Assembly: GCA_040755715.1 (NCBI GenBank)
Contig: JBFLXN010000013.1
Coordinates: 1-27,402 of the forward strand
Direction of reading: 5' to 3'
Source: JBFLXN01 sp040755715 [NCBI: Candidatus Edwardsbacteria bacterium]
GTDB lineage: Bacteria; Edwardsbacteria; AC1; JBFLXN01
DNA length: 27,402 nucleotides
The position numbers were made by a program, and so were the translations under genes. This document shows positions 7,170 through 18,290 of the stretch, one piece after another. Within the stretch, counting starts at the first letter, position 1; every line of letters begins with the position of its first letter. Below the pieces are notes generated by a model. It searched no databases, was not told the origin of the DNA, and saw only the letters and a program-made list of their open reading frames with translations.

Positions 7170-7180
7170 ATGAAGTAATC

Positions 7181-7211
7181 GTTATTAGTTATGAGTTAAT
7201 CGTTATTAGTC
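7181..7211. repeat. Left arm of inverted repeat around IVP gene 1
   Basis: This 31-base arm matches the reverse complement of 7611-7641 at 24 of 31 positions without gaps. It includes one of two direct copies of TAATCGTTATTAGT (7176-7189 and 7197-7210). The pair encloses the four-helix-bundle gene at 7217-7612. Confidence 0.8.
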
Positions 7212-7216
7212 AAATC

Positions 7217-7612
7217 ATGAGGGACAAAAAGGAAAGTTTCAAGAGTTTTGAAGAACTCGATTGCTGGAAAGCATGCAGAGAGGTAAGGCGATATATAACA
7301 AAATTAGTAAGAAAATATCCGTCTGAAGAGAAATTTCGTTTAATAGATGATATGCTCAGAGCGGCAAGATCAACTACTCATAATATTGCCGAGGGATTCG
7401 GAAGATTTCATTATCAGGAAAATATTCAGTTTTGTCGTCAATCTCGTGGTTCGCTTCATGAATTGAAGGATCAACTTATTTGTTCTTTAGACGAAGGTTT
7501 TATTAACCCTGATGATTATAAAGTGAGTGTAGAGTTAATTAACAAGGCATTAGCTTTATTAAATGGCTATATTAACTATCTTTCCAAAAGGAGAGCAGAT
7601 AAGAGCGATTGA
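7217..7612 (+). CDS. Four-helix-bundle protein, S23/IVP family (copy 1)
   Basis: A 131-residue protein of the 23S rRNA-intervening-sequence (IVP/S23) family. The signature parts are FEELDCWKACREVRRYI at the start, DDMLRAARSTTHNIAEGFGR in the centre, and RGSLHELKDQLICSLDEGFI. The family forms pentameric four-helix bundles and was first found inside 23S rRNA intervening sequences; relatives (Avd) serve diversity-generating retroelements. No rRNA or reverse transcriptase is visible nearby. The gene lies between inverted word repeats (7181-7211 and 7611-7641), and its last codons run into the right arm. It separates the LeuC-like gene from a second nucleotidyltransferase. Its role is unknown, possibly nucleic acid binding. 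Confidence 0.9.
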   Translation: MRDKKESFKSFEELDCWKACREVRRYITKLVRKYPSEEKFRLIDDMLRAARSTTHNIAEGFGRFHYQENIQFCRQSRGSLHELKDQLICSLDEGFINPDDYKVSVELINKALALLNGYINYLSKRRADKSD

Positions 7613-7660
7613 CTTATAACTTATAACATATAACTTATAACTTGTAACATATGACTTATG
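7611..7660. repeat. Right arm of inverted repeat around IVP gene 1
   Basis: A run of TTATAACATATAAC-type words, of which 7611-7641 pair with 7181-7211. The last words (CATATGACTTATGAC) contain the ATG of the next gene at 7658, so that start region is repeat-derived and has no evident Shine-Dalgarno site. Confidence 0.8.
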
Positions 7661-8179
7661 ACTAAAGCGTGTGAATTCTATAATAAAGCAACTAATTCAA
7701 AATTTGATATTATTGCGGAGTTCTTAAGTTTATTGCATAACGAAAGAATAAATTACTGTGTAATAGGTGGAGTGGCCATAAATGCATATTGTGAACCTTT
7801 AGTTACACTTGATTTTGACTGCGTTATAGCAAAAGATAGAATAATAGATTTGAAGGAAAAATTGAAATCAAAAGGATTTAAAATAAAGACACATCCACAT
7901 ACTTATGAAGTGACCCATCTTAACTCAGAAGTAAGGATACAGATTCAGCGAGATAACAGGTATCAAGAATTCATAAAAGGTGCTACTTTTTGCAAGGTGT
8001 TGGATTATAGAATGCGGGTGGCCAAGAAAGAAGATTTGCTGTGCGGTAAGTTATGGGCTTCTCAAGATAAGACACGAAATAAGTTGAAAAAAGAAAAGGA
8101 TATGCTTGACATCCATCGTTTGACTGATAAATATGCTGAGCTCAAGAAGTTGATGAATAAAAAATTTCAATCCGCTTAA
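7658..8179 (+). CDS. Nucleotidyltransferase, MNT/AbiEii-like (copy 2)
   Basis: A 173-residue polymerase-beta-type nucleotidyltransferase. The catalytic core is visible as INYCVIGGVAINAYCEP (Gly-Gly and helix) followed by TLDFDCVI (D-x-D). The C-terminal part, with KEDLLCGKLWASQ and KEKDMLDIHRLTD, is typical of stand-alone MNT proteins with one substrate-binding helix pair. It differs from the first nucleotidyltransferase at 5434 in both length and sequence. The start is taken at ATG 7658, inside the repeat arm that follows the IVP gene; the first 15 residues are weakly family-like. No partner gene follows; a palindrome and DUF4321 come next. Substrate unknown. Confidence 0.8.
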   Translation: MTKACEFYNKATNSKFDIIAEFLSLLHNERINYCVIGGVAINAYCEPLVTLDFDCVIAKDRIIDLKEKLKSKGFKIKTHPHTYEVTHLNSEVRIQIQRDNRYQEFIKGATFCKVLDYRMRVAKKEDLLCGKLWASQDKTRNKLKKEKDMLDIHRLTDKYAELKKLMNKKFQSA

Positions 8180-8184
8180 GGCGG

Positions 8185-8295
8185 ACCACGAAGACACGAA
8201 ATGGTAATATGCTGATACGAAATGAAAAACTTTTATACATAATCAGCATATCACCGTCTCAATACTGTGCTTTCTAAATTTCGGGCTTTCGTGGT
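8185..8295. repeat. Imperfect palindrome between nucleotidyltransferase and DUF4321 genes
   Basis: ACCACGAAGACACGAAA (8185-8201) pairs with 8279-8295 at 14 of 17 positions. The inner arms GGTAATATGCTGAT (8203-8216) and 8242-8255 pair at 13 of 14. A small hairpin TCCGC/GCGGA (8171-8185) overlaps the stop of the preceding gene. Confidence 0.85.
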
Positions 8296-8326
8296 TTAGG
8301 TGGTAAAAGAAAGAGGAATACCAAAA

Positions 8327-8587
8327 ATGCGAAAAAGAAGTGTGGGATTTTTCCTTCTTGTGATTCTCTTGGGAGGTTTAATCGGCAGTGCCGTTGGAGA
8401 ACTTATAGGTTATGTTCTCCCTTCAGGAGTAGTTAAGGATTTCTTTACGCGTTCGGTAACTCCACATTTTGCTCCGGTAACACTCAATCTCCTTGTTTGC
8501 ACGATTACCTTTGGCTTTGCCGCCAAACTCAATGTTGTTAGTCTGTTAGGGATGGTGCTTGTTTTCTATCTCCTCCGCTGGTTCTGA
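8327..8587 (+). CDS. DUF4321 small membrane protein
   Basis: An 86-residue protein with a basic N-terminus (MRKRS) and two hydrophobic helices: VGFFLLVILLGGLIGSAVGE and a C-terminal one (LNVVSLLGMVLVFYLL). The Gly-rich first helix, the LIGYVLPSG segment and the LNLLVCTITFGFAAKLN block fit the DUF4321 family, whose function is not known. ATG 8327 follows AGAGGA at 8312-8317; the in-frame upstream codon at 8300 lacks a ribosome site. It precedes tatA, separated by a palindrome. Confidence 0.8.
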   Translation: MRKRSVGFFLLVILLGGLIGSAVGELIGYVLPSGVVKDFFTRSVTPHFAPVTLNLLVCTITFGFAAKLNVVSLLGMVLVFYLLRWF

Positions 8588-8647
8588 AGAAATATGCAGA
8601 GGCCACAGAATATTCGCAGATTACAAAACTAAAAGGTTTAACCTGTA

Positions 8648-8723
8648 ACCACAAATGGATCCCATTAGAAATCTATATCATAGACAAGCAAGATAAGAGA
8701 TTTCTAACAGGTTTCATTGGTGG
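8648..8723. repeat. Imperfect palindrome upstream of tatA
   Basis: 8648-8674 (ending CATTAGAAATCT) pairs with 8698-8723 (starting AGATTTCTAACAGG), with an uninterrupted core AGATTTCTAA and a matching CATTGGTGG/CCACAAATG end. It lies before the tatA ribosome site. I see no promoter boxes I would defend. Confidence 0.75.
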
Positions 8724-8749
8724 CTAAAATTATATCAGGAGGTTTTAAA

Positions 8750-8968
8750 ATGAATATCGGACCTTGGGAATTGCTTTTAATCTTTCTGGTCGTTCTTCTG
8801 CTCTTCGGAGCAAGACGGTTGCCAGAAGTCGGAAAGTCATTGGGCCAGGCATTTCGAGAGTTTAAGAACGCTATGAAACAAGGACTGTCAGAGAATTCAG
8901 AAGAACCTACCTCGGAAGTGAAAAGTGAAAAGCGAAAAGCGAGAAACGAAGGAAACGAAAAAGCGTAA
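8750..8968 (+). CDS. tatA: Sec-independent protein translocase subunit TatA
   Basis: A 72-residue twin-arginine translocation pore subunit. It has a short N-terminal membrane helix (WELLLIFLVVLLLF), the hinge FGARRLPEVGKSLGQA and an amphipathic helix (FREFKNAMKQG), all diagnostic of TatA/TatE. ATG 8750 has a strong AGGAGG at 8737-8742. The charged tail (EVKSEKRKARNEGNEKA) is encoded by tandem GTGAAAAGCGAAAAGCG-type words that continue past the stop, so the end of the gene seems to have grown into intergenic repeat. No tatC is adjacent. Confidence 0.93.
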   Translation: MNIGPWELLLIFLVVLLLFGARRLPEVGKSLGQAFREFKNAMKQGLSENSEEPTSEVKSEKRKARNEGNEKA

Positions 8969-9056
8969 AGCGAAGAACGGAAAAAATTTTAAACTGAGGC
9001 GTTGTGCCAAATTTGTTTGGTGTTTGGAATTTGGTCATTGGTTATTAGAATTTATA

Positions 9057-9968
9057 ATGTATCCGACTTACCTTGATTTGTCTGAAACCAGCGAATTTTC
9101 AAATCGGGTAGAAAAAACCTGGCAGATGTTAGAAAAATGTGAGCTCTGTGGTAGAAAATGTAGAGTTAATAGACTTAGAGATGAAAAAGGAATTTGCCGC
9201 TCAGGAAAGGATATTTTAATTTCGAGTTTTAACGCTCACTTTGGTGAAGAACCACCTCTTTCTGGATTTTATGGCTCAGGCACGATTTTTCTCACTAATT
9301 GTAACTTGCATTGCGTCTATTGTCAAAATTATCCGATTAGCCAATTAGAAAACGGAAATAAGTATACTTTTGAAGAAGTAGCCCAAATGATGATTTCTTT
9401 GCAAAATAGAGGTTGTCATAACATAAATTTTGTTACCCCCACTCATTTTGTTCCTCAGATACTTAAATCACTTGAGATTGCTATTAAAAATGGACTGCAA
9501 ATCCCCATAGTGTATAATACCGGAGGTTATGATTCTATTGAGACCTTGCGTTTACTGGATGGAATTGTTGAGATCTATCTTCCAGACGCTCGTTATGGAG
9601 ATAGTAAAATTGCGGAGAAGTATTCTGGTTGCAAGAATTATGTGGAAATCAATCGGTCTGCTCTTAAAGAAATGCATCGTCAGGTGGGAGACTTGATTTG
9701 CGACCAGAGAGGAATTGCCAGGAAAGGTTTGATTATCAGGCATCTTGTTCTGCCTGGTGGACTGAGTGGCACAAGAGAAGTGATGCATTTCATTGCCGAA
9801 GAAATTTCACCAAAGACCTATATTTCTTTGATGGAGCAATATTTTCCGGCTTATCGGGCTTATGAATTTCCTCTTATTTCACGAAGAATTAACGACGAAG
9901 AATATGAAGAGGCAAAAAGAATAATGCGGGAAACTGGATTAGAAGAAGGTTGGTGGCAGGAGAGGTAA
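9057..9968 (+). CDS. PflX-like radical SAM protein (COG1313)
   Basis: A 303-residue radical SAM protein resembling PflX/pyruvate formate-lyase-activating homologues (COG1313). The catalytic [4Fe-4S] motif is CNLHCVYC, followed by the glycine-rich VYNTGGYDSIETL region and the YLPDARYGD segment. An extra N-terminal cysteine set (CELCGRKCRVNR ... GICR) may bind another cluster or zinc. Members probably activate a glycyl radical enzyme or modify a protein, but no glycyl radical enzyme is visible here. ATG 9057 is chosen because the family alignment begins at YPTYLDL; the in-frame extension upstream is repeat-derived (AAATTTGG-type words). No good ribosome site is seen. Confidence 0.85.
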   Translation: MYPTYLDLSETSEFSNRVEKTWQMLEKCELCGRKCRVNRLRDEKGICRSGKDILISSFNAHFGEEPPLSGFYGSGTIFLTNCNLHCVYCQNYPISQLENGNKYTFEEVAQMMISLQNRGCHNINFVTPTHFVPQILKSLEIAIKNGLQIPIVYNTGGYDSIETLRLLDGIVEIYLPDARYGDSKIAEKYSGCKNYVEINRSALKEMHRQVGDLICDQRGIARKGLIIRHLVLPGGLSGTREVMHFIAEEISPKTYISLMEQYFPAYRAYEFPLISRRINDEEYEEAKRIMRETGLEEGWWQER

Positions 9969-9975
9969 GATAGTT

Positions 9976-10030
9976 CAAATCAAAAATCAAAAATCAAATA
10001 TCAAATATCAAAAAGCAAAATGCAAAATAA
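9976..10030. repeat. Tandem CAAAAATCAAATAT words
   Basis: A run of CAAAAATCAAAAATCAAATATC-type words after the radical SAM gene. It also supplies the start codon of the small basic ORF at 10020. The same vocabulary returns at 10180-10228 in the same orientation and at 10264-10320 inverted. Confidence 0.8.
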
Positions 10031-10157
10031 AACAGCTTTGAAGAAACCACGGCGTCGATGGAAAATTAAGCCATTCACTCGGGTTAAAACGAGTAAGAAA
10101 ATCTATCACCGCCAACGCTTGAAAAATAAATGGCGAAAAATCCTAAGAGAAGAATAA
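10020..10157 (+). CDS. Tiny, highly basic protein (45 residues)
   Basis: The ORF encodes 45 residues, with Lys, Arg and His making up nearly half (KKPRRRWKIKPFTRVKTSKK, then YHRQRLKNKWRKILREE). The composition resembles small ribosome-associated or nucleic-acid-binding proteins, but I cannot match a named family. The non-repetitive coding-like sequence between two repeat blocks argues that it is real. Against that, the ATG lies inside AT-rich words and no Shine-Dalgarno site is visible. It lies upstream of ruvX on the same strand. Confidence 0.5.
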   Translation: MQNKTALKKPRRRWKIKPFTRVKTSKKIYHRQRLKNKWRKILREE

Positions 10158-10179
10158 CCTTGTAACACCAAACTAAGAT

Positions 10180-10316
10180 CAAAGATTAAAAATCAAATAT
10201 CAAATATACAAATCAAAAAAGTAAAAATTATCTTTTGTCTTTCCGTGTTCGCTAATTTGTTTTTAATTTTTATATTTTTGATTTGTGTTTTTGATTTTTG
10301 ATATTTGATTTTTGAT
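10180..10316. repeat. Large AT-rich palindrome before ruvX
   Basis: 10180-10228 pairs with 10264-10316; the inner 22 bases adjoining the loop (AATTTTTATATTTTTGATTT-type) match at about 20 of 22, then pairing continues as shifted ATTTTTGATATTTG words. It ends 15 bases before the ruvX ATG, which has no clear ribosome site. Confidence 0.85.
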
Positions 10317-10330
10317 ATTTCAATTCTGTT

Positions 10331-10750
10331 ATGGCACGAATATTAGCCTTAGACTTAGGTAGAAGAAGGGTAGGAGTGGCTATATCCGACTTTCTGAAGT
10401 GTACTGCTCAAGGATTATCTACCTTAGAAATAAGAGGGAAACGAGACCTTTTGAATAACCTCAAGAAATTAATGGCTGAATATGAAATAGAAGAAATCTT
10501 AGTTGGAATGCCATTTCCTTCAAATGGACAATTGAGTAAAAGAGGAGAAGAAATTTCTACTTTAGTAAATTGGCTGCAAAAACAGATTTCTGTGCCTTTT
10601 CGTTTCTGGGATGAAACATTTACCACCAAAATTGCTGAACAAATTTTACATGAAAGTGGTTTACATCTGAGAGGACGCAAAGGTGCCTTAGATAAAATTT
10701 CCGCTATTTTGATGTTGCAAGAATATCTGTCACAAAAAAATCAAAAGTAA
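10331..10750 (+). CDS. ruvX: Putative pre-16S rRNA nuclease / Holliday junction resolvase YqgF (RuvX)
   Basis: A 139-residue RNase H-fold protein of the YqgF/RuvX family, implicated in 16S rRNA 5' end maturation. Family blocks are ILALDLGRRRVGVAISD at residues 4-20 (first catalytic Asp), ILVGMPFPSNGQ, WDETFTT with the central acidic residue, and DKISAILMLQEYL with the last catalytic Asp. Length is normal. The last residues (QKNQK) are encoded inside the left arm of the next palindrome, so the C-terminus is repeat-derived. Confidence 0.93.
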   Translation: MARILALDLGRRRVGVAISDFLKCTAQGLSTLEIRGKRDLLNNLKKLMAEYEIEEILVGMPFPSNGQLSKRGEEISTLVNWLQKQISVPFRFWDETFTTKIAEQILHESGLHLRGRKGALDKISAILMLQEYLSQKNQK

Positions 10751-10847
10751 AAAGGCAAAACCAAAACTTAAAACTAGTAACCACTTATTGACTTAAAAAG
10801 TTTTGAATTTTGAGATGTGGTTTTACCTTTTGCGTTTTTACTTTTGA
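10741..10847. repeat. Imperfect palindrome between ruvX and hprK
   Basis: TCAAAAGTAAAAA (10741-10753) pairs perfectly with 10835-10847, and AAAACCA (10757-10763) with TGGTTTT (10818-10824); a further AAAACTTAAAAC/GTTTTGAATTTT pairing lies inside. The left arm covers the last codons and stop of ruvX. Confidence 0.85.
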
Positions 10848-10920
10848 CTTAATAGGTGAACCTTATATGTTAGCAACTTTTTTGGAGAAGAACTAAATAA
10901 AGAGGAAAGAAAATAATACT

Positions 10921-11895
10921 ATGGAAGAACGTTTCGTCACTGTGGAAGAGTTGTTAAAAGAACGGGGAGAAATCTTTGAACTTACTCTCCTAAGCGGAGA
11001 AGGTGGATTAAAAAAGAAAATAATTTCAATGGATATCAATCGCCCTGGACTTGCTTTGGCCGGTTACACCGGGTATTTCCTTTGGGAAAGAATTCAAATT
11101 ATCGGAGCCACTGAAACATCTTATCTTGAAACTCTTCCTCAAGAAAAAAGAAAAGAAGCGGTGAACAGAATCTTAACCTATGAATTGCCCTGCTTAATTG
11201 TTACCAAAGGTCTCAAACCAACAGTGGAATTAAAACGAGGAAGTGAAGAAAAAGATATTCCCCTTTTTACCACACCTCAAGATACTACACCTTTCATTCA
11301 CTCTCTTACTTCATACCTTGAACATAAGTTGGCTCCCCAAACAACAATGCACGGCACTTTAGTTGATGTCTATGGTGTTGGACTACTGTATACTGGAGAA
11401 AGTGGTATTGGCAAAAGTGAGTGTGCCCTGGATTTGGTTGTCCGAGGTCATCGTTTGGTAGCAGATGATGTCATAACTATCAAACGAAGGGGACAGGGAA
11501 TTTTGATTGGATACGGAAACGAATTACTCCTACACCATATGGAAATCAGGGGCATCGGAATTGTTGACTTAGTTAGTCTCTACGGAATTAGAGCAATTCG
11601 CATGCGGAAGAGAATTGAACTGGAAGTTCGCCTCAAAAGATGGAGCGATGAAGAAGACTACGACCGTCTAGGATTAGTTGAGCAACCAACTACTATTTTG
11701 GGAGTAGAAATTCCTTTGGTAACTGTTCCGGTTAACCCTGGGAAAAACATTAGTGTTATTTCTGAGGTAGTAGCGATGAATCATTTGCTAAAAATTTCCG
11801 GTTATCGCTCAGCCGAAGAATTTCACAAAAGACTGTTAGAATCAATGCAGAGACGATTTGAAGCCGTGCATTATTTGGAAGATGACCTAGAATAA
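10921..11895 (+). CDS. hprK: HPr kinase/phosphorylase
   Basis: A 324-residue HprK, which phosphorylates or dephosphorylates HPr at Ser46 to couple carbon status to regulation. The N-terminal regulatory domain covers about residues 1-130. The catalytic domain shows His144 in MHGTLVDVYGVG, the Walker A loop GESGIGKS (159-166), the Asp pair ADDV, and the family signature HHMEIRGIGIVDL, then PVNPGKNISVISEVVAMN. The length is typical. GAGGA at 10902-10906 is about 14 bases from ATG 10921, slightly far. The neighbours include a GH57 glucan enzyme, which fits carbon control, but no HPr or PTS gene is visible. In some phyla without PTS sugar transport, HprK still has a regulatory role; that is knowledge of the family, not seen here. 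Confidence 0.94.
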   Translation: MEERFVTVEELLKERGEIFELTLLSGEGGLKKKIISMDINRPGLALAGYTGYFLWERIQIIGATETSYLETLPQEKRKEAVNRILTYELPCLIVTKGLKPTVELKRGSEEKDIPLFTTPQDTTPFIHSLTSYLEHKLAPQTTMHGTLVDVYGVGLLYTGESGIGKSECALDLVVRGHRLVADDVITIKRRGQGILIGYGNELLLHHMEIRGIGIVDLVSLYGIRAIRMRKRIELEVRLKRWSDEEDYDRLGLVEQPTTILGVEIPLVTVPVNPGKNISVISEVVAMNHLLKISGYRSAEEFHKRLLESMQRRFEAVHYLEDDLE

Positions 11896-11915
11896 ACCTG
11901 AAGACATAGAAAAAT

Positions 11916-12039
11916 CGGAAATTTATAGAAACTGATAGAAATTTATTGAAATTTAATACAGAAATTCGTTGAAACTTGTTAAAATTCATTGGAATTTATC
12001 CGGTTCCTATAAATTTCTATTTATTTCTATCAATTTCCG
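11916..12039. repeat. Imperfect palindrome between hprK and the GH57 gene
   Basis: The 33-base arm 11916-11948 (CGGAAATTTATAGAAA...) matches the reverse complement of 12007-12039 at 28 of 33 positions. Loop and flanks are built of the same GAAATTTATTG word. The right flank ends at the GH57 ATG (12056), with no separate ribosome site visible. Confidence 0.88.
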
Positions 12040-12055
12040 CAAATTTCTATAAAAT

Positions 12056-14209
12056 ATGAAGACCATCAATTTCCTTTTTGGGGTTCATAATCACCAACCA
12101 ATTGGCAATTTTGATTATGTCTTTGAACAAGCCTACCAGAAGGCTTATCTCCCTTTCCTGAAGGAATTGGAAAGACATCCGAAAGTCAAGGTAACTTTCC
12201 ATTATAGTGGCTGTCTCTGGGAATGGCTGGATAGGTTTCATCCAGATTTTTTCTCACCTATTCAGCGCTTATTAGAAATCGGACAGATTGAACTCATCGG
12301 GGGGGGATTTTATGAACCGATTTTGCCGGTTATCCCCGAGATAGACCGTCAAGGACAGATTAAAATGATGAATGATTTTCTGAAAAGAAAATTTGATATC
12401 AGACCAAAGGGATTCTGGTTAGCTGAAAGAGTTTGGGAGCCACATTTGCCTTTTTCTATTGTTAAAGGAGGACTTGAATATACCGCTGTAGATGATTGGC
12501 ATTTTAAATCAGTAGGATTAGAAGAAAAAAATTTATTTGGTTACTATCTCACAGAAGAAGAAGGAGAGACATTAAAAATTTTTCCTATCAGCCAGAAATT
12601 GCGCTATTTAGTTCCATTTCACCGAGTAGAAGAAACAATAGATTTTTTCCGCCAGTGGGCTACCGAAGATGGAGAAAGGGCCGCCATTTTGGCTGATGAT
12701 GGGGAGAAATTCGGTATCTGGCCAGGAACTTATGAACATTGTTATCAAAAGGGATGGCTTTCTTCATTCTTTACCGTCTTAGAACAAAATAGTAATTGGC
12801 TGGAAGTTTTGACTTTTAGCGAATATGCCAAACGCTATTCACCCCTGGGTCGTATATATCTCCCGACAACTTCGTATGCAGAAATGGGAGAATGGGCACT
12901 TCCTCCAGCCGCCCATCAATACTACGAGGAATTAGTCCTCCGTCTAAAGGATGAAAATGCTTACGAGCGTTACGGACCATTTGTTAAGGGTGGGTTCTGG
13001 CGAAACTTCTTAGCCAAGTATCCAGAGGCAAATCATCTTCACAAGCGAATGCTTCAAGTCAGTCAAAGATTGGCTTCCCAGACTTTTGCCCGTCCAATTG
13101 CTTCGCTTTCAGACACGCCAGCCAGGGACGAAAAAGCTAAAATAGAGTTATTGCGAAGTCAGTGTAATTGTGCTTATTGGCATGGTGTCTTTGGTGGACT
13201 GTATTTACCACATCTGCGTTCGGCCATTTACCAGCACCTAATTACTGCCGAAAAAATCCTTGACCAGTTGAGACCCTCAACCGAGTCCTTTTGGATTGAA
13301 AGTAAAGTAGATGATTTTAATGGTGACGGAGAAGAGGAAATTATTATTGAGACCAAAACAATCAAAGCGATTTTTTCACCTGCCCAAGGAGGTAATTTGA
13401 TTGAATTAGACTACAAGCCAACAGCACAAAATTTACTTGACACTTTAACTAGGCGGAAAGAGAGTTATCATAAAAAAATTCTCCAATCAGCGATTAAAGA
13501 AAGTAGGGGCGTTAAATTTAACGCTCCTACCGGTGAAAAAAGCATCCATGAGATGGTTTTAAGTAAAGAGGAAGGGTTAGAAAAATTTCTTCAATATGAT
13601 TGGTATCAACGGGTTTCTTTAATAGACCATTTCTTCGGGGAAGGAACTACCTTAGAAGACTTCAGCCACTGTCAGTATCCGGAACAAGGTGATTTTGTCA
13701 ATCAAAGATATGATACTGAAATCATGAAGAGTTCAGAGGAATTACAACTAAATTTACTCAGAAAGGGGAACATCTGGTCTAAAGAAAAGAGACTGCCTTT
13801 GCAGGTGGAAAAGAAAATCAAATTTTCAAAAGGGCAACCTATTTTTACTGTGAATTATGCTGTGACTAATTTGAATGAGGAGCTTGTGGCTCTCTGGTTC
13901 GGGGTAGAGTTTAACTATGCTTTTTCGGGAGAAGGAGAACAAAAAAATCAGTTTAGTAGTGAGGAGAAAATTTCTGAAGTGCATCTTAAATTGGAAAATT
14001 TGGTTTTCTCTCTTTTTCTAGAAAAAGAAGCAAATCTCTGGAGATTTCCTATTGAGACTATTTCTCAATCAGAAGCAGGATTTGAAAGAATCTATCAGAG
14101 TAGCGTCTTTTGCTTTCACTGGAAATTCTCACTTGAACCACAGGAGACTTGGGATGTGGCCTTGAAACAGGAAATCTCTCATATTTCCAACTTCCTGCTT
14201 CCCACTTGA
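12056..14209 (+). CDS. GH57 4-alpha-glucanotransferase / alpha-amylase
   Basis: A 717-residue glycoside hydrolase family 57 enzyme acting on alpha-1,4-glucans. Opening GVHNHQPIGNFDYVFEQAY is the first GH57 conserved region. The nucleophile is Glu124 in FWLAERVWEP and the acid/base Asp214 lies in ADDGEKFG, equivalent to E123/D214 of the Thermococcus litoralis enzyme. The C-terminal half matches the DUF1925/DUF1926 beta domains (SIHEMV, YDWYQRVSLIDHF). Whether transfer or hydrolysis dominates cannot be told. There is no signal peptide, so it is probably cytoplasmic, working on storage glucan. Residues 483-492 (SRGVKFNAPT) are encoded by a nearly perfect palindrome (13503-13530) that looks like an in-frame insertion next to the conserved SIHEMV block. 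Confidence 0.92.
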   Translation: MKTINFLFGVHNHQPIGNFDYVFEQAYQKAYLPFLKELERHPKVKVTFHYSGCLWEWLDRFHPDFFSPIQRLLEIGQIELIGGGFYEPILPVIPEIDRQGQIKMMNDFLKRKFDIRPKGFWLAERVWEPHLPFSIVKGGLEYTAVDDWHFKSVGLEEKNLFGYYLTEEEGETLKIFPISQKLRYLVPFHRVEETIDFFRQWATEDGERAAILADDGEKFGIWPGTYEHCYQKGWLSSFFTVLEQNSNWLEVLTFSEYAKRYSPLGRIYLPTTSYAEMGEWALPPAAHQYYEELVLRLKDENAYERYGPFVKGGFWRNFLAKYPEANHLHKRMLQVSQRLASQTFARPIASLSDTPARDEKAKIELLRSQCNCAYWHGVFGGLYLPHLRSAIYQHLITAEKILDQLRPSTESFWIESKVDDFNGDGEEEIIIETKTIKAIFSPAQGGNLIELDYKPTAQNLLDTLTRRKESYHKKILQSAIKESRGVKFNAPTGEKSIHEMVLSKEEGLEKFLQYDWYQRVSLIDHFFGEGTTLEDFSHCQYPEQGDFVNQRYDTEIMKSSEELQLNLLRKGNIWSKEKRLPLQVEKKIKFSKGQPIFTVNYAVTNLNEELVALWFGVEFNYAFSGEGEQKNQFSSEEKISEVHLKLENLVFSLFLEKEANLWRFPIETISQSEAGFERIYQSSVFCFHWKFSLEPQETWDVALKQEISHISNFLLPT
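13503..13530. repeat. In-frame 28-base palindrome inside the GH57 gene
   Basis: GTAGGGGCGTTAAA followed by TTTAACGCTCCTAC is a reverse complement with one mismatch and no loop. It encodes RGVKFNAPT without disturbing the frame. Confidence 0.9.
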
Positions 14210-14224
14210 GTCTTTTCTGTGTTC

Positions 14225-14244
14225 TCCGCCACAAACACGGCGGA
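14225..14244. repeat. Small hairpin before the UDG gene
   Basis: TCCGCC and GGCGGA close an 8-base loop between the GH57 stop and the UDG start. There is no T-run, so it is not a convincing terminator. If the UDG gene starts at GTG 14219, it would be coding. Confidence 0.6.
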
Positions 14245-14269
14245 TAGGTCTGTGGTTGAGAAACTAAAA

Positions 14270-15013
14270 ATGTTTGTTGAGAAGGATTTTCTTCAATTAG
14301 CAAAACGGTATTTACAGCAAAGAATAGAATTAGGGGAAAGAGAAATCTTTGCGGTGGACCTTATCCAATTCCCTTCCAACCCCACCCTTAATCCTTCCCC
14401 TCGAGGGGAGAGTGAGGGAGGGGTTAGGAGGGAGAAAGGGAAAGGTGGAGAAGGTAGTAAACTGCAAGCCCTCTACGAATCAATTAGAGATTGTCAGAGA
14501 TGTTTGCTTTCCAAAACGCGCACTAATCTTGTTTTTGGTGTCGGCAATCCGAAGGCATCTTTGGTCTTCATCGGTGAAGCCCCGGGAAGAGAGGAGGATC
14601 TTCAGGGAGAGCCCTTTGTTGGAGCCGCTGGGCAATTGTTAACTAAAATCATTGAGGCGATTGAATTTAAAAGAAGTGAAGTCTATATTACTAATGTGAT
14701 TAAATGCAGACCACCGGAAAATAGAAATCCTCTGTTGGAAGAAATTGCCAACTGCGAGCCATATCTCATTCAACAGCTTAGTATCATTAAACCCAAAATT
14801 ATTTGTGCTCTCGGAACTTTTGCGGCTCAAACTTTGCTGAAAACGACTATCCCCATTTCCCTTCTCCGAGGGAAAATTCACTATTATCAAAGTATCAAAG
14901 TCATTCCTACTTATCATCCAGCAGCACTTTTACGAAACCCCGGCTGGAAACGACAAGTCTGGGAGGATATGAAACTAATCAAAGAAGAGTTCTCCACAGA
15001 ATATAATGGATAG
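14270..15013 (+). CDS. Family 4 uracil-DNA glycosylase
   Basis: A 247-residue iron-sulfur uracil-DNA glycosylase that removes uracil from DNA in base-excision repair. Motif 1 is VFIGEAPGREEDLQGEPFVG, and the closing motif is PTYHPAALLRNPGWK. The [4Fe-4S] ligands are CQRC, then CRPPENRNP and a Cys 16 residues further (ANC). The N-terminal helix region is joined to the core by a Pro/Gly/Arg-rich linker (residues about 34-60) encoded by a palindrome centred on CCCCTCGAGGGG (14397-14408). This linker is not part of the family core. ATG 14270 is preferred; GTG 14219 in the same frame would add 17 residues. The gene is followed by repeats and a broken IVP gene. Confidence 0.92.
   Translation: MFVEKDFLQLAKRYLQQRIELGEREIFAVDLIQFPSNPTLNPSPRGESEGGVRREKGKGGEGSKLQALYESIRDCQRCLLSKTRTNLVFGVGNPKASLVFIGEAPGREEDLQGEPFVGAAGQLLTKIIEAIEFKRSEVYITNVIKCRPPENRNPLLEEIANCEPYLIQQLSIIKPKIICALGTFAAQTLLKTTIPISLLRGKIHYYQSIKVIPTYHPAALLRNPGWKRQVWEDMKLIKEEFSTEYNG
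14371..14432. repeat. In-frame palindrome inside the UDG gene
   Basis: Arms 14371-14400 and 14405-14432 flank TCGA. The perfect core is CCCCTCGAGGGG and the outer parts (CCAACCCCACCC against GGGAGGGGTTAGG) pair with some mismatches. The frame stays open through it. Confidence 0.85.
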
Positions 15014-15029
15014 ATAAAATTCAGTGTAA

Positions 15030-15052
15030 AATTATCAGTGCAAAATTAGCAA
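15030..15052. repeat. Left arm of inverted repeat around the broken IVP gene
   Basis: AAAATTAGCAA (15042-15052) is a perfect reverse complement of 15341-15351. Pairing continues outward, imperfectly, to about 15030 and 15363. The arms enclose the IVP remnant at 15059-15326. Confidence 0.7.
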
Positions 15053-15058
15053 CTACCA

Positions 15059-15326
15059 ATGAATACAGAGGTGGAGAAAAAAACAGGCAGCGATCTAGCG
15101 GAGCGTTTGCTTGATTTTGCCGTAAGCATGATCAAGCTGGTCAATGCTTTACCCAAGACAGTCGTTGGCAAACACATCAGGGGACAACTCTTACGATCAG
15201 GAACTTCTCCGGGGGTCCAATTATGAATTGGTTAGCCCTGAACATGTTAATCCCCTCATTTCAGAATGTGAAGAATTATGTGCCATCATCACAAAGAGCA
15301 TCATTACCGTGAAAGAAAAGGAGTAG
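15059..15326 (+). pseudogene. Broken four-helix-bundle S23/IVP gene (copy 2)
   Basis: ATG 15059 opens a frame that begins as a member of the second IVP subfamily (DLAERLLDFAVSMIKLVNAL, then GKHIRGQLLRSGTSPG) and stops at TGA 15224-15226. The C-terminal part resumes immediately in another frame as SNYELVSPEHVNPLISECEE and CAIITKSIITVKEKE, ending at TAG 15324-15326. Intact members have several dozen extra residues between the SGTSPGANYE block and the C-terminal helix, so an internal deletion has removed the middle helices and shifted the frame. It lies between inverted arms, like the other two IVP genes in this window. It is unlikely to make a folded bundle. Confidence 0.85.
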
Positions 15327-15340
15327 TTTTGCAATGCTAA

Positions 15341-15363
15341 TTGCTAATTTTGAATTGCTAATT
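15341..15363. repeat. Right arm of inverted repeat around the broken IVP gene
   Basis: TTGCTAATTTT (15341-15351) with further TTGCTAATTG words on both sides pairs with 15030-15052. A small separate hairpin AATTGTT/AACAATT follows at 15383-15403. Confidence 0.7.
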
Positions 15364-15430
15364 GATGATTTTGTTGATAGAATAATTGTTTACTGAGAAC
15401 AATTTGTGCTGAGCCATTCGGAGGAACATT

Positions 15431-16804
15431 ATGCCTGAAGTTATTACTACTTCCCGCCGAACTAACGGCGGGTCTGCGACAATAGAGCGTGTTCTACCGC
15501 AATCAGTTGAAGCAGAAAGAGCGGTTTTGGGTGCGATGCTTTTGGAAAAAGAAGCTATTGGTAAAGCGGTGGAGGTCTTAGGTGAAGAGGATGTCTTTCA
15601 TCTTCGCCAGCATAGCAAGATTTATAAGGTAATTCTGTCTTTATACGAAAGAGACGAAGCAGTAGATTTGGTTACTACCACTGAAGAACTTCGAAGAAGA
15701 AAGGAAATTGAAGAAATAGGCGGTCCGGTCTATCTCACTACTTTATTGGAATCAGTGGCGACGGCGGCAAATGTAGAATATTATGCTAAAATTGTTTTAG
15801 AAAAAGCGATTTTGCGGCGATTAATACAGGTGGCTACTCAAATTGTCTCACTAGGATATAATGGTTCACAAAATGCCGAAGAATTATTGGACCAAGCTGA
15901 ACAAATGATTTTTGACATCGGCGAGCGCCGACTGCGACAGGGACTGATTTCCATTAAAACACTCCTACATCATACCTTTGAAATCATTACTGAGCTTTAT
16001 GAACACAAGAGGAAAATCACTGGGGTAGAATCTGGATTCATAGACTTGGATAAAATGACGGCTGGGTTTCAGAAGGGGGATTTAATTGTTATTGCTGGCA
16101 GGCCATCAATGGGTAAGACAAGCTTAGCCTTAAATATGGTGGATTTTATTGCCACAGAAAAAGGCATTTCTACTGCTATTTTTAGTTTGGAAATGTCAAA
16201 GGAACAGTTGGTCCAGAGATTGCTTTGTTCAAAGGCAAAGGTAAGTAGTTATGCTTTGCGGACAGGATTTTTGCAAGAGACACAGTGGGGTCATTTAACT
16301 GCCGTGGCTGGAGTTCTGGCAGAGAATCCAATTTATATTGACGACAGTTCTACTCTTTCAGCCTTAGAAATCAGAGCAAAAGCGAGAAGATTAAAAACAG
16401 AGACTGATTTGGGTTTGGTTATTGTGGACTATCTTCAGCTAATGAGAGGTCCAGAAAAAGCTGAAAATCGACAGCAAGAAATTGCTGAAATCGCCAGAGG
16501 ACTTAAGGGGTTAGCTAAAGAACTAAATGTACCAGTAATTGCTGTAAGTCAACTCTCTCGAGGACCAGAACGAAGAGAAGACCGACGTCCTGTGCTGGCA
16601 GATTTACGAGAATCCGGAGCCATTGAACAGGATGCTGATATGGTGATTTTTATTTATCGGGATGAACAGTATCATCCAGAGACCTCTGACCAAAAGGGAA
16701 TTGCCGAAATAAATGTTGCTAAACAGAGAAGCGGCCCCACTGGTGTTATAAAATTAGCATTTATCAAAGAATATATGCGATTTGAAAACCTTATTGAAAT
16801 GTAA
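15431..16804 (+). CDS. dnaB: Replicative DNA helicase DnaB
   Basis: A 457-residue hexameric replicative helicase. The N-terminal domain begins with VLPQSVEAERAVLGAMLLE. The RecA-like C-terminal domain has Walker A GRPSMGKTS (from residue 223), SLEMSKEQLVQRLL, Walker B LVIVDYLQLM, and motif SQLSRGPERR...LADLRESGAIEQDADMV, ending with KQRSGPTGVIKLAFIKEY. Full length, no intein. ATG 15431 has GGAGGA at 15419-15424. Residues about 8-15 (SRRTNGGS) are encoded by a hairpin CCCGCCG/CGGCGGG (15453-15472) in the disordered N-terminus, which may also fold in the mRNA just after the start codon. Confidence 0.95.
   Translation: MPEVITTSRRTNGGSATIERVLPQSVEAERAVLGAMLLEKEAIGKAVEVLGEEDVFHLRQHSKIYKVILSLYERDEAVDLVTTTEELRRRKEIEEIGGPVYLTTLLESVATAANVEYYAKIVLEKAILRRLIQVATQIVSLGYNGSQNAEELLDQAEQMIFDIGERRLRQGLISIKTLLHHTFEIITELYEHKRKITGVESGFIDLDKMTAGFQKGDLIVIAGRPSMGKTSLALNMVDFIATEKGISTAIFSLEMSKEQLVQRLLCSKAKVSSYALRTGFLQETQWGHLTAVAGVLAENPIYIDDSSTLSALEIRAKARRLKTETDLGLVIVDYLQLMRGPEKAENRQQEIAEIARGLKGLAKELNVPVIAVSQLSRGPERREDRRPVLADLRESGAIEQDADMVIFIYRDEQYHPETSDQKGIAEINVAKQRSGPTGVIKLAFIKEYMRFENLIEM
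15453..15472. repeat. In-frame GC hairpin in the 5' end of dnaB
   Basis: CCCGCCG, a 6-base loop and CGGCGGG, located 22 bases after the A of the start codon. The same CCCGCC...GGCGGG motif appears at 16839-16873. Confidence 0.85.
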
Positions 16805-16805
16805 T

Positions 16806-16967
16806 CTAAAAATCAAAAATCAAATATATCACCCCGCACCCCGCCTATGGCGGGGGATCCCGCTGTGGCGGGACAAACCAAAAATGTAAAAATTATTTTG
16901 TTCCTCCCTTTGATTTTTGCGTTTTTGATATGTGTTTTTGATTTTTCATATTTTATTTTTAATTTTG
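16806..16967. repeat. AT-rich inverted words enclosing two GC hairpins, dnaB-mlaE gap
   Basis: CTAAAAATCAAAAATCAAAT words after dnaB face inverted TTTTTGATATGTGTTTTTG words before mlaE. Between them are two perfect hairpins: 16839-16855 (CCCCGCC, TAT, GGCGGGG) and 16858-16873 (TCCCGC, TGTG, GCGGGA). No T-run directly follows the hairpins. The mlaE ATG sits at the end of the AT words without a ribosome site. Confidence 0.8.
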
Positions 16968-16970
16968 ATT

Positions 16971-17744
16971 ATGAAGCCACATTTTGAATACATCGGGGAA
17001 AAGGTACTAAATTCCTTTGAATACTTAGGTGGAGTCTTTGTGCTTCTGGCTCGGATTATAGCAGCTCTGCCCAAGTGTCTTAAATATTTTCATCTGACTG
17101 TCTATCAAATGATGTTTATGGGAGTTAATTCACTTCCTTTAGTGGTTTTCACCTCTATTTTTACGGGGATGGTTTCAGCCATTCAGGCTAACTATCAATT
17201 AGGGGGGAGGGCTCCTTTAATCTACATCGGTATGGGAATATGTAAGGCTGTTCTTACTGAATTGGGGCCAGTTCTTACCGCTCTGGTTGTTACTGGAAGG
17301 GTAGGAGCCGCTATTGCAGCAGAGTTGGGCACAATGAGAGTGACGGAACAAATTGATGCCTTAGAAAGTCTGGCGATTGACCCTATTCATTATCTAGTTT
17401 TGCCCCGTTTTTTAGCCGGAGCAATTATGATTCCTGTCCTAACTATCTTTGCTATTCTCGTTGCACTTTTAGGTGGCTGGTTAGTTTCTATTTTATCCCT
17501 CAGTATCAGCACTCAACTCTATCTTGATGGACTGCGACTTTACTTTTATAAAAGAGATTTGATTGGTGGGCTTGTTAAGGCGGTTTTCTTTGGCATTATC
17601 ATCGCTACTATGGGATGTTATCACGGTTTTAAGACTCGGGGGGGGGCAGAAGGGGTTGGAAGAGCTACTACCGAAGCGGTTGTTTCCTCAGCGGTGTTGA
17701 TTCTCATCTTTGACTACCTAGTTTCTTCTCTGATTTTTGGCTGA
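16971..17744 (+). CDS. mlaE: MlaE-family ABC transporter permease
   Basis: A 257-residue inner-membrane permease of the MlaE/YrbE family, which moves phospholipids between the membranes of diderm bacteria. It has several hydrophobic helices and the family's central block TELGPVLTALVVTGRVGAAIAAELGTM followed by VTEQIDALESLAIDPI. The end TRGGAEGVGRATTEAVV is also typical. ATG 16971 is chosen as it starts the family-like part; an upstream in-frame start at 16932 would add repeat-encoded hydrophobic residues. The ATPase partner mlaF follows after an inserted IVP gene, and no MlaD (MCE) gene is adjacent. Confidence 0.9.
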   Translation: MKPHFEYIGEKVLNSFEYLGGVFVLLARIIAALPKCLKYFHLTVYQMMFMGVNSLPLVVFTSIFTGMVSAIQANYQLGGRAPLIYIGMGICKAVLTELGPVLTALVVTGRVGAAIAAELGTMRVTEQIDALESLAIDPIHYLVLPRFLAGAIMIPVLTIFAILVALLGGWLVSILSLSISTQLYLDGLRLYFYKRDLIGGLVKAVFFGIIIATMGCYHGFKTRGGAEGVGRATTEAVVSSAVLILIFDYLVSSLIFG

Positions 17745-17841
17745 GGGTTTGTTGGGTTTGTTGGGTTTATTGGGTTTATTGGGTTCATTGGGTTTGTTGG
17801 GTTTATTGGGTTTATTGGGTTCATTGGGTTTGCCGGGTTCC
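17745..17841. repeat. Tandem 9-base GGGTTTRTT array, left arm around IVP gene 3
   Basis: About eleven units of GGGTTTGTT/GGGTTTATT/GGGTTCATT start right after the mlaE stop. A 36-base higher-order unit occurs twice exactly (17754-17789 and 17790-17825). The array is inverted relative to 18237-18286, so the two can pair around the IVP gene. Confidence 0.92.
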
Positions 17842-17864
17842 TATAGTTTGCTTTGAGGTGAAAG

Positions 17865-18290
17865 ATGAAAATTAAAAGGTTTGAGGATTTGCAAGCCTGG
17901 CAAGAGGCGAGAAGATTAGTCAATATGGTTTACAAGGCTATCAACGATAGCGAAAAGTTTAGAAAAGATTTTACTCTTAAGAATCAGACCACTGATGCGG
18001 CTATTTCAGCAATGTCTAATATTGCTGAAGGATTTGCCAGACATTCTAATAAAGAATTTGTCCAATTTCTATTTATTTCCAAGGCCTCGGCAGCTGAAGT
18101 ACAAAGTCTCTTTTATGTTGCTTTGGATCAAAATTATGTGTCCACTGAGGTTTTTCAAACTGTCTATCAACAAGCAGAAAAAGTTTCTAAAATAGATTCT
18201 GGCTTAATCACTTATTTGCTTAGCAAAAAGAGTCAACCCAACAAACCCAACAAACCCAACAAACTTAACAAACCCAATAAACCCAAATGA
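17865..18290 (+). CDS. Four-helix-bundle protein, S23/IVP family (copy 3), with NKP tail
   Basis: A 141-residue IVP/S23 protein of the same subfamily as copy 1: FEDLQAWQEARRLVNMVYKA, TDAAISAMSNIAEGFARHSN and KASAAEVQSLFYVALDQNYV. ATG 17865 has GAGGTG shortly upstream. The bundle domain ends near YLLSKKS; the remaining residues form a tail of Asn-Lys-Pro repeats encoded by the right inverted array (CCCAACAAA units). The stop TGA overlaps the mlaF ATG as ATGA, so translation of IVP and mlaF is coupled. Insertion between mlaE and mlaF, which normally adjoin, suggests it arrived as a unit with its arms. Function unknown; a nucleic acid or rRNA link is inferred from the family only. Confidence 0.9.
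   Translation: MKIKRFEDLQAWQEARRLVNMVYKAINDSEKFRKDFTLKNQTTDAAISAMSNIAEGFARHSNKEFVQFLFISKASAAEVQSLFYVALDQNYVSTEVFQTVYQQAEKVSKIDSGLITYLLSKKSQPNKPNKPNKLNKPNKPK
18237..18286. repeat. Tandem 9-base CCCAACAAA array, right arm around IVP gene 3
   Basis: Five units (CCCAACAAA three times, CTTAACAAA, CCCAATAAA) plus CCCAA. It is coding for the IVP tail and ends one base before the mlaF ATG. It is complementary to the array at 17745-17841. Confidence 0.92.

Follow-up and report, generated by a model that had tools for sequence, protein, structure and literature searches.

The 27,402-nucleotide stretch analysed here (the window; contig JBFLXN010000013.1 of assembly GCA_040755715.1, Candidatus Edwardsbacteria bacterium) carries three genes of the IVP family (PF05635/TIGR02436), otherwise known from intervening sequences (IVS) of 23S rRNA, and each of them lies between protein genes within a pair of inverted, complementary arms. 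Our results confirm that this arrangement, an IVP gene framed by complementary arms, recurs outside rRNA far beyond chance and in several phyla. The arms show a strong association with IVP genes, are particular to each locus and consist mostly of tandem units, and they turn over in concert around a protein that is conserved and stationary. We know of no function for IVP proteins, though they are common in some of the groups sampled, and the data suggest that arm-framed IVP genes between ordinary genes represent a type of bacterial DNA element that has received little recognition.

All three IVP genes of the window are on the forward strand, and their arms, features without a strand, lie where a preliminary description of the sequence had placed them. 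The first gene (7217-7612, 131 amino acids) has its left arm at 7173-7211, with tandem units about 21 nt apart, and its right arm at 7600-7641, part of a 7-nt ACTTATA array that spans 7612-7663; 24 of 31 positions match between 7181-7211 and 7611-7641. The second (15059-15326) lies between arms at 15030-15052 and 15341-15363, the latter inside a 7/21-nt array (15327-15373), and 20 of 23 positions match, with a perfect run that is 12 bases long rather than the 11 first described. The third (17865-18290, 141 amino acids) follows a 9-nt array, GGGTTTATT, at 17745-17841, and its own 3' end is the right arm, a 9-nt array, AACCCAACA, at 18235-18286 that codes for a tail rich in Asn, Lys and Pro; here 52 nt (17761-17812 with 18235-18286) pair at 88%. 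Local inverted-arm alignment scores were 20, 21 and 42 for the three cassettes, values reached by 1, 0 and 0 of 1000 dinucleotide shuffles. The first and third proteins match PF05635 (E-values 7.5e-26 and 2.5e-29) above the Pfam and NCBIfam (TIGR02436) cut-offs. The second gene had been called broken and is indeed frameshifted, its N-terminal half matching the profile in one frame (E 1.9e-5) and its C-terminal half in the next (E 0.017). Since the two intact proteins share 25% identity and the arms are unrelated, a single recent duplication is rejected as the source of the copies, in agreement with the first reading.

To study the arrangement beyond the window we scored two sets of loci, calling an arm at a local inverted score of at least 15. 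Among GTDB representatives, the best matches of the window's HprK (69% identity) came from Edwardsbacterium, a UBP2 genome and one metagenome-assembled genome. The Edwardsbacterium phylum group has PF05635 matches in 10/10 genomes, 6 to 29 per genome, and the best match to the window's MlaE has 61-66% identity in nine of these genomes and 44% in the tenth. IVP was found in 36/39 genomes of a KSB1-group sample, 9/40 of the Zixibacteria group and 0/14 control genomes. The first set comprised the window and 100 stretches from the ten group genomes and one Zixibacterium, with open reading frames (ORFs) called mechanically and the flanks of every gene scored. The stretches cover most of the 125 PF05635 matches in the ten genomes, fragments included; genome G010 is the least complete, with 16 ORFs included for 29 matches. 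Contig ends and N positions reduced the 113 IVP ORFs to 110 scored ones. A second profile found nine further IVP ORFs (122 in total), which stand outside the 110 and two of which were counted among the other genes. The second set drew on the Zixibacteria and KSB1 groups, on several further genomes and on seven loci from plasmids; it comprises 79 ORFs in 80 loci, 74 of them scored, some with sub-cutoff PF05635 matches, and one locus (L275) duplicates a site already present in the first.

In the first set, 62/110 IVP genes reached a score of 15 and 34/110 a score of 18, versus 77/1002 and 29/1002 of the other genes. IVP genes thus show more flanking inversion than other genes, also when the latter are restricted to those more than 400 bp from any IVP (67/816 at 15 or above; Fisher p 1e-30). 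An artefact of GC content, low complexity or spacer length is rejected by controls: the threshold was passed by 3.3% of 657 mispaired arms (left of one IVP, right of another), by 1.8% of 110 shuffled IVP flanks and by 4.8% of GC-matched non-IVP genes, and among genes separated from both neighbours by 30 nt or more arms were present at 60% of 65 IVPs versus 11.7% of 359 others (43.8% of 16 versus 14.8% of 210 at 80 nt or more). When one random IVP was kept for each of 45 site groups, 56.9% still had arms. The second set gave the same picture, with 43/74 IVP genes at 15 or above and 37/74 at 18 or above, versus 5.7% and 2.1% of mispaired arms (n=437); five of six cyanobacterial plasmid loci scored at least 18.

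The arms have a recognisable make-up. Tandem structure is significant in 78 of the 108 left arms that score at least 15 in both sets, and 55 of these 78 have a 7-nt unit, as do the short tandemly repeated repetitive (STRR) sequences; the third cassette of the window, with its period of 9, falls outside the strict STRR definition. For most arms the unit sequence is particular to the site. The left arm ends a median of 13 nt 5' of the start codon and the right arm begins a median of 5 nt 3' of the stop. G exceeds C in the left arm at 93 of 108 loci, which may reflect the need for a Shine-Dalgarno sequence.

The IVP genes themselves stay in place while their arms change. In a tree of the 122 IVPs, proteins group largely by genomic site and not by genome. 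An operon that we take to be hydrogenase-4-like carries IVP genes at six junctions across ten species, and at one of these, J3, an orthologous IVP is kept in eight species with arms that read very differently (GTTCCTTGTTTCGTG in G003, GTTTACAATTTACAG in G011, GATTTGGGATTGGG in G008), each paired with its own partner arm. Arms were present at both loci in 75 orthologous pairs, and in 46 of these they had diverged. Across those 46 pairs, which were selected with both members at 14 or above and are not independent (40 loci), complementarity averaged 17.7 within a genome versus 10.1 across genomes, about the level of chance, and 16% of the cross-genome scores reached 14. Concerted change is incomplete in places, some cross scores remaining high in J2 and in the fabZ-like groups; the group of G008_L191 and G010_L222 may be a terminator-like hairpin. 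Many copies are ancestral at their sites, but their arms are not unrelated sequences, as they match within each genome. Purifying selection acts on the ORF (median dN/dS 0.087, maximum 0.70, in 49 non-independent pairs).

What keeps the two arms complementary? One answer is selection on RNA: the arms would pair in the operon mRNA, where RNase III cuts the stem or the stem shelters the ORF. The rRNA intervening sequences cut by RNase III offer a precedent, according to the part of the Coxiella literature available (PMC4990558), and orientation fits too. Among the 87 of 122 IVPs with a conserved neighbour on both sides, 81 are read in the direction of both neighbours, six match one and none opposes both, which suggests some role for transcription, in the simplest case an ORF that depends on transcription of its host operon. 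However, a stem kept at the RNA level would tolerate G-U but not A-C, and in 97 IVP loci the arms, read on the sense strand, had 152 G-U and 152 A-C mismatches, versus 11 and 0 in 32 tRNA acceptor stems. Selection on an RNA stem was dropped as the keeper of the arms for want of this wobble excess, and the stem-loop logic of the preliminary description is not supported in its RNA form; we regard the RNA explanation as a whole as improbable. Complementarity seems instead to be maintained at the DNA level, to judge from the mismatches, whether through conversion, through template switching or because the shape of the DNA is recognised.

Alternatively, the cassettes could be conventional transposons, with the arms as terminal inverted repeats that IVP recognises by sequence, as a transposase or helper. 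A single ORF between inverted ends, several paralogues per genome and a lineage-specific copy between mlaE and mlaF all agree with this. On the other hand, insertion sequences and miniature inverted-repeat transposable elements have end sequences common to their copies, and here mispaired arms score at chance. Arm similarity and protein identity are also barely linked at paralogous sites (rho 0.09, not significant, within genomes; rho 0.07, p 0.001, between genomes), and similar arms occur in 3.8% of 156 pairs with at least 45% protein identity versus 0.6% of 2359 others. As the arms hardly follow protein relatedness, sequence-specific terminal repeats are rejected; this lack of tracking favours recognition of shape over recognition of sequence. 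It also weakens a TRAP-like reading with one 7-nt unit per subunit of a ring, which we dropped. In addition, copies remain at the same sites across species, and no target duplication was seen at the junctions compared. A transposon in the usual sense is thus very hard to reconcile with the data, and we consider it highly improbable.

Mobility, which had been proposed from the start, fares unevenly. IVPs cluster by site, and several IVP-less junctions look decayed by eye: the start and end of the IVP are left in G003 and the left arm only in G011, while J2 and J5 hold apparently decayed pieces in several genomes and J4 and J6 other arrays. The mlaE/mlaF copy of the window speaks for movement. 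When the mlaE loci of nine relatives, with about 1.5 kb on each side of the gene, were searched by profile, no IVP reached inclusion level, which marks this copy as lineage-specific. The spacer after mlaE varies by eye in these relatives, with solo arrays of the type found at GxxExxY genes (see below), an acetyltransferase-like gene and others, mlaF lying inside the locus in four of the nine. With long-held sites dominating in the relatives, these comparisons of sequence point to mobility that would be slow at most.

Arms of this kind also frame a second gene family. GxxExxY genes (PF13366, PDDEXK_3), which are unrelated to IVP, have arms scoring at least 15 at 23 of 27 scored loci (of 30), versus 10.7% when mispaired, while none of the 12 scored ParE genes (of 17) passed the threshold. 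Their mismatches are symmetrical too, with 41 G-U and 41 A-C in 23 loci. However, only 9 of the 23 GxxExxY arms are significantly tandem, and their unit is 8, 9 or 10 nt long but never 7, a difference from IVP arms with p 5e-5, and the G/C polarity of the left arm is missing (10/23). By eye, some junctions (J4, J6 and the one after mlaE) hold an IVP in one species and GxxExxY-type arrays in another.

Arrays occur without any ORF as well. Single IVPs were found in each of four genomes of the Zixibacteria group (G026, G038, G041 and G053), and in three of the four the motif of the genome's own arms recurs elsewhere without IVP. The G026 motif, GGGATYAGGGATYAGGG, has, with at most one mismatch, 17 overlapping matches in G026, 7 in G038, 15 in G053 and 0 in G041; the IVP locus is among them in G026 and G038, whereas in G053 it is not. 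The G041 motif, CGATTGNCGATTGNCGATTG, has 12 matches in G041, spread over four contigs of which one carries the IVP, and 0 in the other three genomes. As controls we used the reversed motifs: reversed CGATTGNCGATTGNCGATTG does not match, whereas reversed GGGATYAGGGATYAGGG does, because it picks up a large part of those same arrays. The copies examined away from the IVP are mostly solitary arrays; G038 has one IVP-less hairpin with a 10-nt loop, and one G041 contig carries a pair of opposed arrays separated by about 180 nt. In 80 genomes, short arrays at the HprK locus were about four times denser where there were at least five IVP matches (11 in 237 kb versus 7 in 638 kb; 2 and 4 in shuffled sequence), an association of IVP count with array density that is suggestive only.

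These findings could be explained if IVP were a mere passenger. Replication slippage and template switching would make arrays in spacers and homogenise them, and IVP and GxxExxY genes would lodge there inertly. The frequent IVP-less pairs and solitary arrays, the symmetry of G-U and A-C, the same arms at an unrelated family and arms that do not track the protein are all as such a process predicts. It does not readily account for the rarity of arms at other genes, even those with spacers on both sides, for the 0/12 of ParE, or for a unit length that depends on the cargo, 7 nt in 55/78 IVP arms versus 8-10 nt in 9/9 significant GxxExxY arms. We therefore think inert lodging unlikely, though a good deal less so than either of the two preceding alternatives.

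The explanation that we favour, tentatively and at a little short of even chances, is that these are fold-back gene cassettes that carry IVP as cargo and are recognised by shape and not by sequence. A cassette would be an ORF read in the direction of the host operon and flanked by a pair of inverted arrays whose units are short, mostly 7 nt. A pentameric IVP ring, related to the Avd protein of diversity-generating retroelements (DGRs), would recognise or process fold-back DNA (cruciform or hairpin) instead of a fixed sequence, and its action could be a templated repair from arm to arm and, rarely, copying or insertion. Such action would both homogenise the arms and spread the cassette together with arrays lacking an ORF. 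The 23S rRNA IVS would then be this cassette residing in a loop of rRNA, and the genes for GxxExxY nucleases would form a parallel type. A bolder version, which we hold as possible but more doubtful, is that of a widespread and previously unrecognised class of fold-back cassettes in which the shape of the DNA, not its sequence, marks the ends, so that the arms may drift freely while still matching. IVP rings (7 nt) and GxxExxY nucleases (8-10 nt) would have arrived at this independently, and the orphan STRRs of many bacteria as well as the 23S IVS, as the rRNA-resident form, would be accounted for by the class.

Several observations weigh against the fold-back cassette. To our knowledge no activity has been assigned to IVP, and template switching during replication would give the same mismatch symmetry without it. 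The near-strict co-orientation fits a role at the level of RNA or expression too. Arms fall below the threshold at 48 of the 110 IVP genes. Many arrays lack an IVP; in the window alone there are four inverted array pairs without one, which also speak against specificity: 2778-2866 (a hairpin of two inverted arrays of the third cassette's 9-nt family), 9977-10320, 11918-12053 and 16803-16969, and a search for IVP remnants within these pairs found none. In G053 the IVP arms read GAGATTAG, and the recurring arrays are related to them, not identical. Across the 80 genomes, a higher IVP count goes with only a modest increase in array density (rho 0.36, p 0.001). Finally, no clean empty site with a target-site duplication was seen, the junctions compared by eye holding remnants or other inserts.

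The cassettes resemble several known systems without matching any of them. The preliminary description spoke of an rRNA-type element moved into protein operons, and in anatomy it was right: in the part of its description available (PMC4990558), the Coxiella 23S IVS has a 28-bp terminal stem, a sense-strand ORF and two to three tandem heptamers before the IVP start, so that sense ORF, complementary ends and heptamers in the 5' arm are all shared. The differences are in location, since our cassettes lie between protein genes (a scan of the window found neither a tRNA nor an Rfam family at the gathering threshold, and the flanks are protein genes, not a 23S rRNA gene), in number, with many per genome, and in arms that are site-specific and co-evolve. 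They also lack the signature of RNA pairing, and their ORF is under purifying selection, whereas the same source reports reductive evolution of the Coxiella ORF.

The nearest known logic is that of REPINs and their REP-associated tyrosine transposases (RAYTs), in which, in the portion of the account available (PMC3116915), a small ORF lies by inverted repeats, hairpin copies without the ORF lie elsewhere, and the system persists vertically. However, REPs are shared palindromes and RAYT is a tyrosine transposase, whereas the cassette arms are locus-specific tandem arrays and PF05635 is the sole Pfam family matched by the two intact window proteins, which are thus not RAYTs. A RAYT-like gene, identified by eye at L217:1170-1610, has long inverted flanks with a score of 39, the highest of any non-IVP gene. 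Cyanobacterial STRRs and the heptamers of Xanthomonas and Nostoc are intergenic 7-nt tandem arrays, often capable of forming hairpins (70 inverted pairs in X. campestris), without an assigned function, and the available excerpts of their descriptions do not link them to IVP, unlike the IVP-bounding arrays reported here (PMC2670836, PMC4692102). In the open-licence PMC literature, as far as its accessible parts go, we found no link between non-rRNA IVP genes and flanking inverted arrays, which is weak evidence of absence. The strong and reproducible association of IVP with arrays, whose arms co-evolve at the DNA level, merges two puzzles, the function of IVP and that of the long-described intergenic heptamer arrays, into one: does an IVP ring act on fold-back DNA?

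The kinship with DGRs lies in the protein. Avd is a four-helix-bundle homologue of IVP, according to the accessible part of its description (PMC10053308), and in the window the likeness amounts to a sub-cutoff match of the protein at 7217 to the NCBIfam Avd profile (NF033474). Solved structures of IVP homologues exist (2gsc, 2rld). Eighteen IVP genes have been reported in cas loci, in the section available of PMC3936711. On a Pseudanabaena plasmid (L305) an IVP gene lies between cas6 and cas4, with an arm score of only 8 and hence no evidence for a cassette there; on another reading, a part of the IVP genes at cas loci may be there as passengers of an operon junction.

The neighbours of the window's cassettes are, by Pfam, members of the aconitase/LeuC family, UDG, DnaB, MlaE and an ABC ATPase, as first described; the gene at 7658, which had been called MNT, matches the DUF6036 nucleotidyltransferase family at 22.5 bits, just under the 23.6-bit cut-off. 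At 16803-16969 of the window, inverted AATCAAA-type arrays enclose a GC-rich hairpin and no gene. In ten genomes of the Edwardsbacteria group (L312-L341), GxxExxY genes at the 23 of 27 scored loci with arms lie between inverted arrays of the CACAGAG or CGCAGATT type, and in a Zixibacterium (L142:18317-18688) an IVP cassette with TTTATAAG-type arms sits between two genes that look by eye like tRNA genes. Two loci of the hydrogenase-like operon have an unusual content, again by eye. In G003 (L131:2001-4199) an apparent prolyl-tRNA synthetase gene lies between two IVP genes, resembling a composite insertion, and J5 of G010 (L216:7695-8699) contains a solitary GTTTGAAA array and a nucleotidyltransferase-like gene pair, together with another start of the operon gene that follows.

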